IMG/VR virus record: IMGVR_UViG_3300033182_001093
Coordinates: 1 to 28,018 of that record
DNA: 28,018 bases
Source of the DNA: a virus
Strand: one strand, 5' to 3'
Shown here: in pieces, positions 11,077-26,688 of the stretch
Layout of the letters: each line of letters starts with the position of its first letter
How positions within the stretch are numbered: the stretch's first letter is position 1
Position numbers and translations under genes: made by a program
Notes under the pieces: generated by a model
The model's input: only the letters and a program-made list of their open reading frames with translations
Databases searched by the model: none
Told to the model about the DNA's origin: nothing

Positions 11077-13509
11077 CTAATTGTTGCGCTGTTTCAACAA
11101 CTCTCGATCCATCGCCGACTGAATCCTAGCAGCCGTTTGACGTTCTTGAGCCGCCAACCTCTGATTAAATTGCTCTGAACGCATCTGCTGGTTCTGAGCA
11201 TCCAACTGTAATTTTTGTTGATCTAGTTGATTATCTGCCTGATCTGCTTGAGCTTTAAGCTGCAATTCCTTCTCTTTTAGTTGAATAAGAGGATCTGGAC
11301 CTTGCTGCTGACCTTCGCCTGTTATTTCTTGAGAAACCTGACGAGCTTGAGCTAAACCCTCAGAAACAAGTTGAGCTACCATCTGCTCAAACATTAATTC
11401 AGAATCCATACCCTGCTGCATACCCTGTTGAGCTAACTGCTGTCTTGCATGTTCTCTAGCAGCTATTTGAATATGCTCCATAACATGCTTCTGCATTGCA
11501 ACACTTACCGTAGGCATCTGAGCAACCATAGGTGAAGTCATAAACATAATATGAGCCTTTATGTGAGCTTGGTGATTCTGACCCTCAAAAGCTTTTAGAG
11601 GCAACATATCAAAAGCGTTCATATTCTCTTTAGCAGGATCAATAGGTTCAGGTATTTCCGAAGGAGTAGCCTTCATAATACGATCTACGTCCTGAACTCC
11701 CAAAGCTTCGTACATATCCTTATACACTTCATGCAAATTATGCAACTCTGGAGCCTGAGAAGCTAACTGTAACTTAGTCTGAGCCAACATAATTCGCTGA
11801 GATTGACTAAATATATTCGGATTACTGACAGGCAAAACGTCCACACGATCATCAAAATCCTGAGCCATGATCGACTGATTACTGCCCGCTACCGTATATG
11901 GATACTCCTGTGGCAAACTCTCAGACATTACACGAGCCAAAATCTTAAATTCCTGACGCATCGCATAATGCAAACGCTTATGCACAGCACTCATGACCCG
12001 TGAGCCTTGTTCCATCATCGCAACAGTCGTGCCCACCGCTGCTTGCTGATTCCCATCGCCAACCTTCAAATCAGTTATCGTGGCAAACCGCTGACCAGCC
12101 TGAACTACAAAACCAAGCAAATTAAACAAAGTCGTATCAGCACCCTTAAATGGCAACAGCATCAAACTGTCTCTAATAGCACCACCGGGAGCATCAACAT
12201 CACGAAATTCACCGGGCTGTAAAGGATCATCGTCGTCCCTGATCCGTAGTCCACGGGCCTTGAACCCTGCTGGAAGATTCGATAACGTACCAGCATCAAT
12301 CAATTGACGCAAAGCAGCAGTCGCTGTACGAGATAAACCACCAATGGTATGAATTAAACCTAACCCATAAAACCCAAAGCCGGGTAGAAATTTATAATGT
12401 GTAAAATATTGTATCTTCTTCTTGAGAGGATCATCCTCTAAATAATTTCTACGGATCGCTAATATTTGTCCGTTGTCCTCGGATATCGTTACAATGTAAG
12501 GAACCTTAATTCCAGTAGGTTCACCATCCTCGTCAACCTCTTCGTAACCCTCTAAATCCAAATCAACATGAACTTCCAAGATCGTACAATCGTAGTCCAC
12601 GGTGCTCGGTTCAATGCCCTGAATACCGTCCAACTCCGAAGTGACTCCAGTCACCTCTTTCTGAGCAGGAATAACATCAACATCTAAATAAACTCCAGAT
12701 AACTGACGCTTACGTAAATCGTTCAAAGACATCCGAACTACCTGAGTAATATTAGGACAAGTCTCCAAATCCGAAGTCTCGTAAGGAACCACCAAATTCT
12801 CAGCAGGTACAAAGCGTGATACAGCACGGCCCAGAGTCTCATCGTAATAAGTCTTCTTGAAAGTTGAGCCAGCCAAAGGTAGATAGAACAACATCTGATC
12901 CATGTCTGGAGTGTATTCCTCCATGACGTTGGTGATGTAATAATTCATAAAGTGCTTGACCCGCTGTGATTGAGCCATCTTATCCGCAGATTCCTGACCC
13001 ATTACTACAGTACGGACAGGACCGCCGGGAGGAAGTAATTCGTTGAAAGCCTGAGCTTGAAACTGAGTCGCAGCTTCAGCCAAAAGAGGGTGAGTCACAC
13101 CAGAGGCTCCACGAAAAGGTTGTGTGCGCTCCTCGTAACTAAAACCCAAAAGTTCTAGACCGTTCGAATAGGTGTCTTCCCACTCCTGACGAGAGGATTT
13201 GTTCGCATCAAACTCTTCCAAAAGTTCTGAAGAAATACGAGCTAACTCACGCTCTGGTATAAATTCAGCCAAATTAGCATCAAAAGCACCTTCGTCGGAA
13301 AGTTCATCTTCTGGATCGAATTCGACAGTGACACCACCGTCTTCCATTTCAATAACTTCTATTTTTTCGTCTGTCTCAGGTAATTCAGAAACTAAAAGAG
13401 TCTGTGATGAAGGTAATTCAACCTCTATTTCTGCCCTTAAATCGTCTTCGTCTAGCTGTGAAGGCACGTTCCGAAACATCATGCCCGCATTTGGTTTACC
13501 ACTTTCCAT
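11077..13509 (-). CDS. Portal protein
   Basis: The protein has 810 residues, long for a portal but usual for the SU10/P22-like group. Recognisable blocks are LLEEFDANKSSRQEWEDTYS, PFRGASGVTHPLLAEAATQF, LPLAGSTFKKTYYDETLGR and FVPAENLVVPYETSDLETCPN. A mid-region block, LSRTATAALRQLIDAGTLSNLPAG, is also typical of this family. The last 150 residues are Gln-rich and coiled-coil, possibly a barrel or internal extension. It forms the dodecameric DNA channel at the capsid vertex and docks the terminase. It follows the terminase gene by 20 bases, with GGGGG ahead of the ATG. Confidence 0.92.
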   Translation of the reverse strand: MESGKPNAGMMFRNVPSQLDEDDLRAEIEVELPSSQTLLVSELPETDEKIEVIEMEDGGVTVEFDPEDELSDEGAFDANLAEFIPERELARISSELLEEFDANKSSRQEWEDTYSNGLELLGFSYEERTQPFRGASGVTHPLLAEAATQFQAQAFNELLPPGGPVRTVVMGQESADKMAQSQRVKHFMNYYITNVMEEYTPDMDQMLFYLPLAGSTFKKTYYDETLGRAVSRFVPAENLVVPYETSDLETCPNITQVVRMSLNDLRKRQLSGVYLDVDVIPAQKEVTGVTSELDGIQGIEPSTVDYDCTILEVHVDLDLEGYEEVDEDGEPTGIKVPYIVTISEDNGQILAIRRNYLEDDPLKKKIQYFTHYKFLPGFGFYGLGLIHTIGGLSRTATAALRQLIDAGTLSNLPAGFKARGLRIRDDDDPLQPGEFRDVDAPGGAIRDSLMLLPFKGADTTLFNLLGFVVQAGQRFATITDLKVGDGNQQAAVGTTVAMMEQGSRVMSAVHKRLHYAMRQEFKILARVMSESLPQEYPYTVAGSNQSIMAQDFDDRVDVLPVSNPNIFSQSQRIMLAQTKLQLASQAPELHNLHEVYKDMYEALGVQDVDRIMKATPSEIPEPIDPAKENMNAFDMLPLKAFEGQNHQAHIKAHIMFMTSPMVAQMPTVSVAMQKHVMEHIQIAAREHARQQLAQQGMQQGMDSELMFEQMVAQLVSEGLAQARQVSQEITGEGQQQGPDPLIQLKEKELQLKAQADQADNQLDQQKLQLDAQNQQMRSEQFNQRLAAQERQTAARIQSAMDRELLKQRNN

Positions 13510-13529: not shown

Positions 13530-14990
13530 TTAATAATACACCCTAACCTTAACAGACTTTTCGTCATCTTCCCAGTCATCTGTAGGTAACTGGACAAAAT
13601 TTCCTTGACGATACCGCATTAAAGCCTGAGTCATACTATCAACCAAATCATCATACTCACCGTTAGGAAACGCAGCTACCTCTTCCACCATTTCATCTGC
13701 CCACACTTCGTCAGGAACCCAAACCATCCCTGCTTCAAACAAAGGCGACACACTATGTACCCTCGATAACTTGTCATTTCCCCTACTTGGAGTGAAATTA
13801 ACCACAGGAATACCCATGTTCCGTAGTTCGTGGGTCAAGGGCATTCCACTAGCCTTCGCTTCTATTATAACAGTATCAGGCTCCCAGAACTTGTAATTAT
13901 CAAAAGCAATTTGCTTTAATTCAGGAAAATCCCATCTACCTTTCTTACTATCCAACAAAATTAAGTTTGGACCCGAACCGCCCTCATTTGGATAAAACAC
14001 TCCCCAAGTCGTTATCGCAGAAAAATCAGAAGTCTCTCTCTTACTAAAAGCAGTGTCGTAACTCTGTATAACATACTCTAACTGAGGAACCTTCTCCTTC
14101 TCCCACCTACGCCACCATTCACGAGGAATAATCGCATTGTCATCGCCAGTAGGGTTTTGTTGGTACTGAGCGTTCCATTTGCTAGGAGGTATTGATGCAC
14201 GGACGGCATTCAAATCTTCAATACTCCAAAATTCAGGCCAACAAGGAGTCTCATCTTCAAAAATTGCAGGTAATTCCACTACTTCCCATTGATCGGCTAA
14301 CGGGTCTTTAGCCATTGCTCGGAGTAACTGACCTGTCATATCCTTCTCTGACCAACGTGTTTGGACCAAAACTATTGATCCACCGGGCTGGAGTCGCTGT
14401 CGTGGACCCCCTGTGTACCAATCCCAAGCATCATCAAAACCTTTAGTACTCATAGCAGTCTGCTCTGAATGCGGATCATCAATAATAACTAAATCTCCAC
14501 CACGGCCAGCAAGGTTACTTCCGACACCGACTGCGTAATACATGCCTCCTGCGTCCGTGTCCCATCTACCAGAGGCTTTACTATCTGCCGCTAACTTAAC
14601 TTTAGGGAAAATAGTCTTGTACTCGTCCCCGTCAATAAGGTTTTTGGTCTTTCTACCGAAGTTCACGGCTAACTCGGTGGTATGAGTCGCTTGTATGATC
14701 TTCATCTTCGGGTTGCGGCCCATCATCCATGCTGGAAACAAGAACGATGCGAACTCCGATTTGGTGTGTCGAGGGGCCATATTGATGATTAATCGCTTCA
14801 ATTCACCCTTGGCTACCCGTTCAAGCTTCTCGGCGATGATATGATGATGCCTTCCTGCAATGAAATCGGGCCAAACGGTTTTGACAAAAGTTAAAAAATT
14901 ATTTTGACAGGCTTCGTTTTTCTCGATCTGCGCTAAACGGAGTTTCAGTTTTAATAAACGATCTTCTGAAGATAATAAATTACTGCTCAT
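13530..14990 (-). CDS. terL: Terminase large subunit
   Basis: The protein has 486 residues with ATPase and nuclease domains. The ATPase carries a deviant Walker A (APRHTKS, residues 72-78), Walker B LVIIDD (167-172) and coupling motif VQTRW (209-213). The RNase H-like nuclease has acidic residues at YDTAF (D312), IIEAKASG (E377) and YDDLVDS (D447/D448/D451). It translocates and cuts DNA into the procapsid through the portal. It is the first gene of the leftward late operon. A TATAAT box at 15012-15017 and a 24-bp element shared with the early promoter lie just upstream. Its small partner is encoded 4.6 kb away on the other strand. Confidence 0.95.
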   Translation of the reverse strand: MSSNLLSSEDRLLKLKLRLAQIEKNEACQNNFLTFVKTVWPDFIAGRHHHIIAEKLERVAKGELKRLIINMAPRHTKSEFASFLFPAWMMGRNPKMKIIQATHTTELAVNFGRKTKNLIDGDEYKTIFPKVKLAADSKASGRWDTDAGGMYYAVGVGSNLAGRGGDLVIIDDPHSEQTAMSTKGFDDAWDWYTGGPRQRLQPGGSIVLVQTRWSEKDMTGQLLRAMAKDPLADQWEVVELPAIFEDETPCWPEFWSIEDLNAVRASIPPSKWNAQYQQNPTGDDNAIIPREWWRRWEKEKVPQLEYVIQSYDTAFSKRETSDFSAITTWGVFYPNEGGSGPNLILLDSKKGRWDFPELKQIAFDNYKFWEPDTVIIEAKASGMPLTHELRNMGIPVVNFTPSRGNDKLSRVHSVSPLFEAGMVWVPDEVWADEMVEEVAAFPNGEYDDLVDSMTQALMRYRQGNFVQLPTDDWEDDEKSVKVRVYY

Positions 14991-15011
14991 AATAAGGTTC
15001 CTTGGGACCCT

Positions 15012-15048
15012 ATTATAGTCTATAAAGATATATAAATATATGCGATGG
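15012..15048 (-). promoter_or_regulatory. Leftward late promoter: 24-bp element plus TATAAT
   Basis: On the minus strand a 24-bp element (15025-15048, starting CCATCGCATATATTTATATA) is followed after seven bases by TATAAT (15012-15017). A short leader of about 15 bases then leads to the terL ATG. No TTGACA-type -35 box is present, and the element occupies that position. The same element occurs inverted at 15606-15629. Confidence 0.7.
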
Positions 15049-15193
15049 ACCTAAATGAAAAAAATTATTAATTGTTTGTGAAAAACTTAGCTAAAGCCCT
15101 TTTTTATTTTTTATATACCCGGGCGGGCGGCGCAAAGTCCGAGAAAAAAATAGCCCTTGACATTTGACCCGATATGTGAAGGGACCCTGAGCC

Positions 15194-15503
15194 GTTAGCT
15201 AGGTGAGTGACCGCTAACGTAGCTATGTGAGTAACTGCTAACGTAGCTAGGTCAGCGGGCCTTGGATAGCTAGGTGGTTAGCTTAGTGGATAGCTGGGTG
15301 ATTAGCTAGGTGGTTAGCTAGGTGGTTAGCGCACTGGGTAGCTGTGTCGTTAGCTATGTCACCGTGCTATCGACTAGCGGTCCTGTTAGCTCGGTCAGGG
15401 ATGATATGGTAGCACCTTGGATAGCTGGGTAGCTAGCTGTGTAACTGTGCTAATGGCTAGCGGACTGGGTAGCTATGTTAGCGGACTACGGACCACGGAT
15501 CAC
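15194..15503 (+). repeat. Degenerate 12-bp tandem repeat array, consensus GTTAGCTAGGTG
   Basis: About 26 units share a TAGCT core. From 15265 to 15503 nearly every unit is exactly 12 bases (one is 11). Examples are GATAGCTAGGTG, GTTAGCTTAGTG, GATAGCTGGGTG, ATTAGCTAGGTG and GTTAGCTAGGTG in a row (15265-15324). The first part (15194-15253) repeats as a 24-25 base pair of units. Stop codons occur in the repeat frames on both strands, so it is not coding. CTAG and AGCT, both self-complementary, are dense. Confidence 0.85.
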
Positions 15504-15555
15504 GGATCACGTCTTGACATTCTAGAATAATTGTGCATGGACCCCGAACAATAGC

Positions 15556-15605: not shown

Positions 15606-15642
15606 CCATCGCATATATTTATATATCTTGAAAAAATATTTT
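15606..15642 (+). promoter_or_regulatory. Rightward early promoter: 24-bp element plus TATTTT
   Basis: The inverted copy of the late-promoter element (15606-15629) is followed by seven bases and TATTTT (15637-15642). This is the same geometry as the leftward promoter, whose box is TATAAT. The shared layout supports one factor driving both divergent operons, but no start site is proven. Confidence 0.6.
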
Positions 15643-16356: not shown

Positions 16357-17160
16357 ATGGAATTAGAAAGAATGTTAGAAGAGATCAAAAAGATTGACAG
16401 TAATAATATCCTTACGTTTGGGAATCCCAAACTTGATAAGGGAATAGCGATGGGATACCATACAGCCGGTATCCACCTAAGCCCGAGCGATAAATCGGGT
16501 ATTATGAATGTTTGCCCTCGGGCAACTGATGGATGCCGGGCTGCTTGCCTAGACACGGCAGGTAGGGGGGGGATTGGAGCTACTAACAGCTTCGAGACTA
16601 CAAACAACGTCCAAAAATGCAGAATTCGTCGGACATGGCTATTTAAATTAGATCCTATAAGATTCAGAAAGCTAGCAAAAAAAGCATTGAAAAGGCATCT
16701 ATTAAGATGTATAAAACTACAAGTTAAGGCCGCTATTAGACCTAATTTGACATCTGATTTGCTCAAGCTAGTTAAAATGCTTGATGAAATAATTACGGAA
16801 CTTTTACAAGAATTAAAAGCTGAAGGTTTAACGGTAGAAGTTCAATTATATGATTATTCAAAGAATGGTATCAGCTCAAGCCGTGTTAAAGATATCTTAG
16901 GACTCCAAAACAGATATAAAATCACACATAGCTTTTCAGAGAAAATGAGCATCGAAAAGGTTCGAAAGCTTACAGGACAAGGAGACAATGTAGCAGTTGT
17001 CTTTAGAGCTAAAGAATTACCCAAAAGTTGGGAAGGTATCGAAGTTATAAACGGAGATGATCACGACCTTAGATTTTTGGACAAAGCCGGGGTAATTGTC
17101 GGGCTTATCGCTAAAGGTAAGGCTAAAAAAGACCGATCCGGTTTTACGGTGGCAGCATGA
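16357..17160 (+). CDS. GP88-family protein
   Basis: The protein has 267 residues. The N-terminal block LSPSDKSGIMNVCPRATDGC followed by RAACLDTAGRG (cysteines 53, 60, 64) and the C-terminal WEGIEVINGDDHDLRFLD followed by GVIVGLIAKGKAKKDRSGF are the signature of the phage gene product 88 family. That family is widespread in mycobacteriophages and marine phages but has no established function. The cysteine cluster could bind metal. The start is set by an ACTACAGGAG element nine bases upstream, and the stop overlaps the next start by four bases (ATGA). It belongs to the early operon. Confidence 0.8.
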   Translation: MELERMLEEIKKIDSNNILTFGNPKLDKGIAMGYHTAGIHLSPSDKSGIMNVCPRATDGCRAACLDTAGRGGIGATNSFETTNNVQKCRIRRTWLFKLDPIRFRKLAKKALKRHLLRCIKLQVKAAIRPNLTSDLLKLVKMLDEIITELLQELKAEGLTVEVQLYDYSKNGISSSRVKDILGLQNRYKITHSFSEKMSIEKVRKLTGQGDNVAVVFRAKELPKSWEGIEVINGDDHDLRFLDKAGVIVGLIAKGKAKKDRSGFTVAA

Positions 17161-17402: not shown

Positions 17403-17488
17403 AATACATTAAGGGTAATAAATGGGAGATAGCTTTAATACTGGTCTTGCTGCTGATGATAGCGAGATCTATAGGGTTGATTTTATAA
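17399..17488 (+). CDS. 29-residue membrane peptide
   Basis: The ATG overlaps the preceding TGA (ATGA). The encoded peptide has a basic start (MKYIKGNKWE) and one membrane segment (IALILVLLLMIARSIGLIL), ending at a TAA. Such short membrane peptides are common in phage early operons. It has no separate ribosome element, so it would depend on coupling. Function unknown. Confidence 0.5.
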   Translation: MKYIKGNKWEIALILVLLLMIARSIGLIL

Positions 17489-17493
17489 GTCGA

Positions 17494-17544
17494 AACACCT
17501 GCTAGGCAGGTGTCCAGATCTGGTGGCGCAGATCTGCTGATGAT
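17494..17544 (+). other. Hairpin ACACCTGC-TAG-GCAGGTGT and paired CAGATCTG palindromes
   Basis: A perfect 8-bp stem with a three-base loop is followed by two copies of the palindrome CAGATCTG (one after TC, one after GTGGCG) just before an ACTACAGGAG element. There is no U tract. The layout resembles the hairpin-then-ribosome-element pattern seen elsewhere in the early operon. Confidence 0.5.
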
Positions 17545-17571
17545 GACAGCCAAAAACTACAGGAGAAAATT

Positions 17572-19547: not shown

Positions 19548-20075
19548 ATGTTAGAATTAAATATGGTAAAAAAGAAAAAAGAAAATCTACCTCTGACCCG
19601 TAAACAATGGGCATTTGTCAAAGAACTGGTATCCCAAGATGGCTTAATCACCCTGAGACAGGCCGCCATCAACGCAGGCTACGCTCCGAGGTCAGCGCAC
19701 CAAAGAGCGTATGAACTGACAAATCCTAAAATTTCACCACATGTGGTGGCCGAAATTAAGCGATATAGAGCCGAACTAGACGCTCAATATGGGGTGACAA
19801 GGGAGAGACACCTAGAACAGCTTCAACGCATACGTGAGCTTGCGATAGAGCATAAAAATTTCAGTGCTGCGGTGATGGCTGAATATCGTCGAGGTCAAAC
19901 GCATGGAGAAATCTACATTAATAAGAGCGAAGTCAGGCACGGAAGTATTGATTCCATGACGAAAGAAGAAGTTTTGAAAGCTTTGAAAGATTTAAGCGAT
20001 GAGCGCAAGATTATTGAATTTACTCCCTCCGCAGGAGAGGAAGAAGATCCCGAGAAAAGCGACACAGAAGAGTGA
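19548..20075 (+). CDS. Terminase small subunit
   Basis: The protein has 175 residues. The N-terminal helix-turn-helix (LPLTRKQWAFVKELVSQDGL, TLRQAAINAGYAPRSAHQRA, YELTNPKI) matches the phage terminase small-subunit DNA-binding domain. The tail (EIYINKSEVRHGSIDSMTKEEVLKALKDL) is typical of marine phage versions. It would recognise packaging DNA and load terL. Unusually, terS is on the plus strand 4.6 kb from terL. No ribosome element is obvious; TAAAAT lies six bases before the first ATG, so a leaderless message is possible. A second ATG at 19563 is an alternative. The end overlaps the nuclease gene. Confidence 0.78.
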   Translation: MLELNMVKKKKENLPLTRKQWAFVKELVSQDGLITLRQAAINAGYAPRSAHQRAYELTNPKISPHVVAEIKRYRAELDAQYGVTRERHLEQLQRIRELAIEHKNFSAAVMAEYRRGQTHGEIYINKSEVRHGSIDSMTKEEVLKALKDLSDERKIIEFTPSAGEEEDPEKSDTEE

Positions 20076-20472
20076 AGCGTCCTTTTGGAGGACACTCAAA
20101 GAACAGATAAAAAAATCAAATTTGTTTCACTCTTGGACTCGACTGGAGACTTGGGCGATGCCCGGTGTCCCCGATCTCCTGTTATGCGACAGGATTGGGA
20201 GGTTCCATTTTGTTGAACTGAAATCTATTACAGGCAAAGCAGTCAACCTAAGTCCCCATCAAGTTTCATGGCAGAATAAGCACGACATCTCAAGCAGTTG
20301 GATCTTAGTTTACAAAAACGCCACACAAACCAAACCAGAAAGCTTTCATCTTTATCACGCATCTCAAGCAGTAGATCTTTCGTTTAAGGGCTTAGACGTT
20401 AAGTCAGTCTATTCGTCGAACCAAAAAGTTGACTGGAACAAAATTTTTAAGTTAATATTAATTGATCCGTGA
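19999..20472 (+). CDS. VRR-NUC-like PD-(D/E)XK nuclease
   Basis: The protein has 157 residues. An E50, then PGVPD (D59), ELK (E73/K75) and LSPHQ (Q88) form the PD-(D/E)XK core of VRR-NUC/Holliday-junction-nuclease-like enzymes, followed by a WQNKHD helix and a conserved W. It probably cuts branched or flap DNA during replication, recombination or before packaging. It overlaps the small terminase gene by 77 bases in another frame, and the ATG has no strong ribosome site. A GCAGGAGAGG run upstream of ATC codon 17 could mean a shorter or unusual start, so the N-terminus is uncertain. Confidence 0.75.
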   Translation: MSARLLNLLPPQERKKIPRKATQKSEASFWRTLKEQIKKSNLFHSWTRLETWAMPGVPDLLLCDRIGRFHFVELKSITGKAVNLSPHQVSWQNKHDISSSWILVYKNATQTKPESFHLYHASQAVDLSFKGLDVKSVYSSNQKVDWNKIFKLILIDP

Positions 20473-24064: not shown

Positions 24065-24427
24065 GTGAAAAAGTCTGCAATTTTAGAGCGAGCTAATTTA
24101 AGTAGTCACCAGACGAGGAAAACTCGTGCCGTGTACCTACTTTTCTGCGAAGAAGAAGTGGTCTATATAGGTATAACTGATAATCTCGATTGGAGATTAA
24201 AAACTCATAACATCGTCAAAAAATCTGAGTATGATAGCTGCTATTTCCTTGAGGTCCCATTTGAAACTGACAGTGCCGATGGTGGACTTTCTAGAGCGAT
24301 TGAAAAAGCGTTTATCAAACAGTTTAATCCACGCTTAAATACTGATCTGAAAGATGGAAAATTAACTTACCCAGAAGTCTGGTTGCTACGACAAATTTTT
24401 GGTGACGATCTTGAAATTGAGTATTAA
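24065..24427 (+). CDS. GIY-YIG nuclease
   Basis: The protein has 120 residues. VYLL (23-26), VYIG (33-36), R44, E80 and N88/N92 match the catalytic core of GIY-YIG endonucleases. The protein is short, with no obvious extra DNA-binding domain, so it resembles small UvrC/SLX1-like or stand-alone nucleases more than a full homing enzyme. It starts with GTG, lies just after a terminator, and has its own promoter. It may act in repair, resolution or DNA breakdown. Its role in this phage is not shown. Confidence 0.85.
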   Translation: MKKSAILERANLSSHQTRKTRAVYLLFCEEEVVYIGITDNLDWRLKTHNIVKKSEYDSCYFLEVPFETDSADGGLSRAIEKAFIKQFNPRLNTDLKDGKLTYPEVWLLRQIFGDDLEIEY

Positions 24428-26636: not shown

Positions 26637-26688
26637 TTGTTTACCTCTATATTAATTTATATTATTTTATAGAAAGATATGCGATAAA

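Follow-up and report, generated by a model that had tools for sequence, protein, structure and literature searches.

A fast-evolving tandem-repeat (minisatellite) tract occupies a fixed position upstream of the terminase large subunit gene (terL) in a large, mostly marine, abundant and mostly uncultured phage group. Next to it lies a conserved, previously undescribed control region with the order R-box, ~80-bp spacer, B-box, promoter and terL. We tentatively favour, with somewhat less than even confidence, reading the R-box/B-box (R/B) unit as a pac-like region that adjoins the late promoter and at which packaging would start, with the array as its fast-evolving flank.

The window, meaning the whole stretch of DNA analysed, corresponds to a 28,018-b virus record in IMG/VR and covers about half of a ~57 kb genome. 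Its rightward operon, with terS and an endonuclease-like gene, lies on the far side of the array from terL (Table 1). Among the matches listed, TerL relatives at 83-90% identity are abundant in IMG/VR, and the nearest annotated phages by TerL are 023Pt_psg01, HTVC027P, DSL-LC04 and HTVC023P (53-62% identity). The IMG/VR contigs are metagenomic and many of them terminate near the array. The terS segment of the window (15606 to ~25300) is oriented opposite to terL, and the two are co-oriented in genomes G001-G005 and in DSL-LC04; the window may have undergone an inversion of ~10 kb that ends, on one side, at the array. The rightward operon also carries, among its small genes, a match to the type II hammerhead ribozyme (17488-17555, plus strand, Rfam RF02276, scoring 48.5 bits where the gathering threshold is 37), and a protein with a GIY-YIG nuclease domain is encoded at 24065-24427 (plus strand, PF01541, E 4.6e-7).

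Table 1 Features of the window discussed in the text.
Feature	Position	Strand	Basis or remark
Portal	11077-13509	minus	with terL at the head of the leftward structural operon
terL, terminase large subunit	13530..14990	minus	phrog_38, E 8.5e-108
GGGTCCC	15004..15010	.	20 bp upstream of the terL start codon
Promoter-like element CCATCGCATATATTTATATATCTT before terL, left inverted-repeat arm	15025..15048	minus	ATCGCATA conserved in relatives' terL leaders
B-box GCTAAGTTTTTCACAAACAATTA	15069..15091	minus	82 bp from ATCGGGTCA; ~81 in relatives, same coordinates
R-box GGGTCCC-TTCACAT-ATCGGGTCA, anchor between array and terL	15165..15187	minus	motif in >119 viral contigs
Whole repeat array, hypervariable minisatellite region	15194..15511	.	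autocorrelation, TRF, k-mer counts
24-bp-unit sub-block, ~2.4 copies, R-box-proximal	15196..15262	.	TRF score 93; lag-24 identity 0.72
Strict 12-bp-unit sub-block, ~8 copies, TGGTTAGCTAGG type	15263..15356	.	lag-12 identity 0.73, z 8.4
Degenerate part, TAGC in register with one further 1-bp slip	15357..15481	.	weak 12-bp signal
Four heptads, CCGTGGT/CCGTGAT type as in relatives	15482..15511	minus	TRF period 7, 4.3 copies; heptad census
Identical promoter-like element toward the rightward operon, right inverted-repeat arm	15606..15629	plus	
terS, SF6/SPP1-like small terminase, candidate reader of the R/B unit	19548..20075	plus	PF03592, E 2.1e-7
Endonuclease-like gene	19999..20472	plus	phrog_93 endonuclease, E 2.7e-7

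The repeat array in the window and in relatives

The 12-base repeat signal proposed in an earlier note on this DNA is real. The lag-12 identity of 15194-15503 is 0.430, compared with 0.263 +/- 0.028 in 1000 dinucleotide shuffles (z 6.0), and none of the 1000 shuffles reached the observed value (shuffle maximum 0.379). The high density of CTAG (8 observed, 0.9 expected) and AGCT (15 observed, 2.0 expected) was borne out as well, and TAGCTA is found 9 times (0.2 expected); the exact count of TAGCT is 15 (0.5 expected), short of the ~26 units that had been claimed. The 12-base register described as almost unbroken from 15265 to 15503 is strict only at 15263-15356, and the TAGC phases (4 at 15196-15244, 3 at 15267-15387 and 2 at 15410-15470) reveal two 1-bp slips. 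The lag-12 z-score is 7.3 over 15263-15503, where lags 24 and 36 are just as strong, and only 2.0 over 15357-15503. The distal end, to which 12-bp units had been assigned up to 15503, consists of 7-bp units read on the terL strand, and the unit length given by TRF is 24 bp at 15196-15252, 12/24 bp at 15263-15356 and 7 bp at 15482-15511. A scan of the array against Rfam gave no RNA family match.

Arrays were found at the same place upstream of terL in at least 115 related viral contigs, mostly with a 7-bp periodicity. When 115 loci were aligned on the R-box, with 350 bp of array-side sequence per locus, the mean autocorrelation had peaks at lags 7, 14, 21, 28 and on to 56 (besides lag 1), and the window alone among the loci compared exceeded z 4 at lag 12. 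By TRF, 58 of 91 arrays have a best period divisible by 7; the other best periods include 9, 10, 13, 22 and 45, with 12/24 in the window. In the relatives the heptads lie within ~250 bp of the R-box and are mainly CCGTGGA/CCGTGGG and similar; the unit types in the heptad census include CCGTGGN, CCCAGCT and others. Two loci of a sister clade carry, respectively, eight near-perfect 12-bp copies of TTTTCCCAGTAA, unrelated in sequence to the units of the window (L314), and a 23-bp unit (L312). Elsewhere, five contigs match the TAGCTA-type 12-bp array pattern. The array measures 97-572 bp between R-box and L-box, the latter lying beyond the array in 81 of 109 loci; a search of the window for the L-box did not find it. 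Near the R-box the heptad phase is common to the loci (resultant 0.52 at 0-60 bp, with 0.11 by chance, and 0.11 at 180-250 bp), although part of the agreement is shared descent, since a control period also exceeds chance.

DSL-LC04 has heptads upstream of terL, and HTVC027P has GCTTGAN heptads at 16500-16640, beside the terS-linked nuclease gene and ~4 kb from the terL locus. An array at terL was looked for in HTVC027P and HTVC023P (TerL identity 53-62%) and not found; these cultured viruses are thus functional phages lacking the array at this locus, which the earlier note had named as an observation against its reading. We note that the ORF annotated as gp32 in HTVC027P (MN698241, 16499-16747) overlies these heptads and is possibly not a true gene. 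In L294, a Maricaulis MAG contig whose TerL is 73% identical, no R-box, array or GGGNCCC was found, and a gene lies directly upstream of terL.

Since relatives have other unit lengths and sequences at the same locus, the 12-bp period is not conserved and the repeat unit is free to change. Selection for a 12-bp spacing or for one face of the helix, as had been suggested, finds no support in view of the 7-bp and other units of the relatives and of the unrelated 12-bp array of the sister locus; moreover, with 10.5 bp per helical turn, units of 12 bp do not fit complete turns. The register would have been made by tandem duplication and later blurred by point mutations, a process that is enough to explain it. 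None of the publications found in a literature search reports repeats upstream of terL in this phage group.

The conserved frame between the array and terL

The R-box motif GGGTCCC-N-ATATCGGGTCA was found in >119 viral contigs, and each of the 127 loci that could be tested has terL behind it, in most cases at a distance of 164-240 bp. The majority of the loci were recovered by the motif alone and share the R-box by construction; claims of R-box conservation therefore rest on the linkage to terL, the spacing and the sister clade. Over 105 loci, R-box and B-box are separated by 78-80 bp (5th-95th percentile), and the intervening ~80 bp are constant in length and unconserved in sequence. RNA structure between the two boxes was considered and rejected, as RNAalifold on 50 sequences returned a 3-pair helix in the conserved box with no covariation support. 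In the sister clade a diverged R-like box (GGTACC, GGATCC or GGGNCCC, then AATAGAGGCTAAA) is 78-80 bp from the B-box in 25 of the 25 loci where the box was found, and the B-box variant of the window is also present in 40 sister-clade contigs. The spacing in the window is 82 in sister-clade coordinates, within a range of ~80-82 in relatives and ~81 for ATCGGGTCA in the first group. The B-box is 45 bp from the TTAACT promoter element in 24 of the 34 loci compared; in seven, where an insertion is present, the distance is ~92 bp.

A perfect 24-bp inverted repeat, absent from the earlier note, brackets the array at 15025-15048 and 15606-15629. Both arms carry ATCGCATA and point outward, and we take the repeat as a divergent promoter pair that would not mark the ends of an element. 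A mobile element bounded by the inverted repeat was rejected because the arms match the promoter-like element conserved in the terL leaders of relatives. Two weaker ATCGCATA copies, with 7 mismatches to the 24-mer, were found on the minus strand at 26687 and 27279, upstream of small leftward ORFs. Of 135 relatives, 58 (for example L007, L012 and L016) have exact parS-like palindromes of the TGTTTCACGTGAAACA type in the stretch from array to terL, in some of them on a 47-bp insertion between B-box and promoter; no parS-like site was found when the window was searched. Capture of host ParB/Noc by these palindromes is possible.

The heptamer GGGNCCC marks the terL side of the region. It is found within 170 bp upstream of terL in 10 of 10 genomes checked (nine near-complete or complete relatives and the window). 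Across 81 non-redundant loci it is almost absent on the array side (0.00-0.13 per kb), while the terL side has 4.2 per kb in the first 300 bp and then 1.1, 2.5, 0.57, 0.55, 0.18 and 0.08 per kb out to 8 kb. The control heptamer CCCNGGG has no such gradient over the 81 loci, and the sister clade shows the same GGGNCCC gradient. In the nine near-complete or complete genomes, 55 sites were counted near terL, where 10 were expected, and 18 elsewhere, where 54 were expected. A mere protein-motif effect was rejected by synonymous-codon shuffles, which gave 43 +/- 7 sites in the terL genes of 76 relatives compared with 260 observed (CCCNGGG control, 7 compared with 7.7), although the z-score overstates this evidence, as the sites fall largely on a few recurrent Gly-Pro and Trp-x-Pro positions and are not independent events. 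Other coding DNA of five genomes has 17 sites, compared with 35.5 in such shuffles. G001-G005 and ~80 other loci have the one-sided GGGNCCC track together with a strong G-rich third-position skew over ~5 kb on the terL side. In the window GGGNCCC occurs only at 15004, 15181 and 23347, of which the first two are terL-proximal; its terL and portal genes are without a GGGNCCC zone, and no substitute motif stands out there.

A proposed packaging start and alternative readings

The suggestion of a terminase-linked site in the earlier note has become our leading reading, though it is unproven: terL adjoins the R-box in every testable locus, TerS is of SF6/SPP1 type, and conserved elements lie between array and terL. 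The TerS family profile matches SF6 TerS chains (PDB 4zc3/3zqp/2cmp, E 4.7e-6 to 1.7e-5), and homologues of the endonuclease-like gene adjoin terS in all relatives examined. The helix-turn-helix region of TerS is similar in the window and in relatives despite their different arrays, so that a sequence-specific contact between TerS and the array is unlikely, and the R/B unit is the better candidate contact. Previous studies of SF6 found that individual DNA-binding domains of TerS bind pac DNA weakly and non-specifically, and proposed a model in which the TerS ring selects bent DNA (PMC4737164, PMC6316719). The pac of SPP1 has direct repeats and overlaps promoters, and its boxA repeats are absent in SF6, yet the TerS proteins are exchangeable (PMC4737164, PMC6316719). 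By analogy, the SF6/SPP1-like TerS and TerL would start packaging at the R/B unit, by the late promoter, and the repeat tract may flank it as a bendable platform whose sequence matters little to TerS. Alternatively or additionally, the tract may be a scar left where DNA near the packaging cut has repeatedly broken and annealed.

A fixed terminus was sought in the contig ends. After artificially cut loci had been removed by hand, the ends near the array were smeared over hundreds of bp without a sharp terminus; smeared ends are also expected for a headful phage, and assembly breaks at the repeats would mask a fixed end. As to circular permutation of the genome, the two ends of G003 overlap exactly over 127 bp, ~2 kb from the R-box, which closes the contig, and the other four of G001-G005 have no exact end overlap. 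Several observations count against the pac-like reading: terS is ~4 kb from the site, HTVC027P and HTVC023P package without an array at terL, the R/B unit adjoins a promoter and could serve transcription control, and the window is without the GGGNCCC zone inside terL and portal.

Transcription control of terL is the strongest rival to a packaging start, although we consider it doubtful. A phage regulator would bind R-box and B-box to control the late terL promoter and, in the window, a divergent one as well, and the array would be a multi-site enhancer or spacer. The identical promoter-like elements on both sides of the array, their two weaker copies elsewhere, the usual 45-bp distance from B-box to TTAACT, a sigma-70 region 4 protein among the pooled early proteins, and the position of the relatives' array between a terminator and the terL promoter all fit this. 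However, the 47-bp insertion alters the B-to-promoter spacing in several loci and leaves the R-to-B spacing unaltered, which suggests that the R/B unit is independent of the promoter; in addition, enhancer sites should keep the bound sequence, and the array sequences differ completely. An iteron-type replication origin, in which the array would hold initiator sites next to an AT-rich unwinding region, is unlikely. An AT-rich stretch does follow the repeats, as in the oriR of SPP1, which lies in the late region and has direct repeats and an AT-rich element (PMC6316719), and the GC skew appeared striking at first: the minimum of the detrended cumulative skew is 78-270 bp from the R-box in 5 of 5 near-complete relatives, and the maximum lies at roughly half a genome's distance. 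On third codon positions, however, strong skew (0.16-0.53) does not extend past the first 5 kb, after which the values are irregular or close to zero; the minimum therefore marks a local zone of ~5 kb after the R-box and not two replichores. HTVC027P, HTVC023P, 023Pt_psg01 and DSL-LC04, all complete distant relatives, have no skew minimum at terL, even though DSL-LC04 has a heptad array, and the skew switch of the window, at ~15000, coincides with the change of gene direction. We rejected an origin inferred from GC skew on these grounds; none of the proteins scanned could be recognised as a dedicated initiator, with the window spanning about half a genome.

That the tract is a neutral minisatellite, persisting without a function of its own in one of the few long untranscribed gaps, we regard as quite improbable. 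Unit length, sequence and array length vary freely and some relatives lack the array at this place, as neutrality would predict; against it stand the single fixed place across a large, diverged group, the heptads of HTVC027P near terS, and a heptad register that prevails across unrelated sequences with its phase locked to the nearby R-box, which is partly shared descent. Very improbable, in our view, is a centromere-like or operator array coated by a small protein, as omega coats the heptads of pSM19035. Omega sites are 7-10 consecutive 7-bp repeats (PMC9499535), an arrangement shared by the contiguous degenerate heptads here, and parS-like palindromes are present near the terL promoter of many relatives. 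However, there were no ParA/ParB/TubZ matches, the unit in the window is 12 bp, the heptads do not match WATCACW, and the window is without parS-like sites. The ribbon-helix-helix proteins suggested as array binders found no support either: Pfam gave no RHH match among the window proteins scanned individually, and RHH_5 matched 1 of 66 early proteins pooled from the window and two relatives.

An extension of the packaging-start reading is possible, though we would not rely on it. Here packaging or another DNA transaction would start at the R/B unit and run into a one-sided GGGNCCC track across terL and portal, maintained by selection at synonymous positions and with its sites avoided in the rest of the genome; the minisatellite would be a rapidly renewed platform on the opposite side. 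If so, a polar, decaying sequence track would be attached to a viral packaging site, for which no precedent was found, and the window would be a derived member that kept the R/B unit and lost the track. The R/B region is one short place where packaging start, late promoter and fast repeat evolution may meet. If packaging starts at the R/B unit, recognition would be by geometry, with the neighbouring repeat tract free to change, and the unit would provide a sequence handle by which packaging sites could be located in metagenomic phages with no need for a culture. Both the R/B geometry and the GGGNCCC track offer concrete sequences that can be mutated.

Comparison with known systems

The herpesvirus 'a' sequence has variable-copy short tandem repeats between conserved packaging elements, and the herpesvirus terminase is related to that of tailed phages; the 'a' sequence is located at genome termini with defined cuts, unlike anything shown for this array. 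The omega/parS system of pSM19035 is similar in its contiguous degenerate 7-bp units, seen here in the arrays of relatives and at 15482-15511 of the window, and differs in sequence, in the 12-bp unit of the window and in that no cognate gene was found here. SPP1 oriR and other iteron origins are alike in having direct repeats by an AT-rich stretch in the late region; they differ in that no initiator was found here and the skew is local and not common to distant relatives. With regard to the pac of SPP1 and SF6, the SPP1 site spans a promoter and the start of terS, whereas the candidate region here (15004-15511) precedes terL, with terS at 19548, and it contains a short-unit minisatellite of 100-570 bp in this phage group, a feature not described in the cited SPP1/SF6 literature. 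The likenesses are a TerS of the same Pfam family (PF03592), an adjacent packaging motor gene, and direct repeats near a late promoter that are not conserved between phages with exchangeable TerS proteins.
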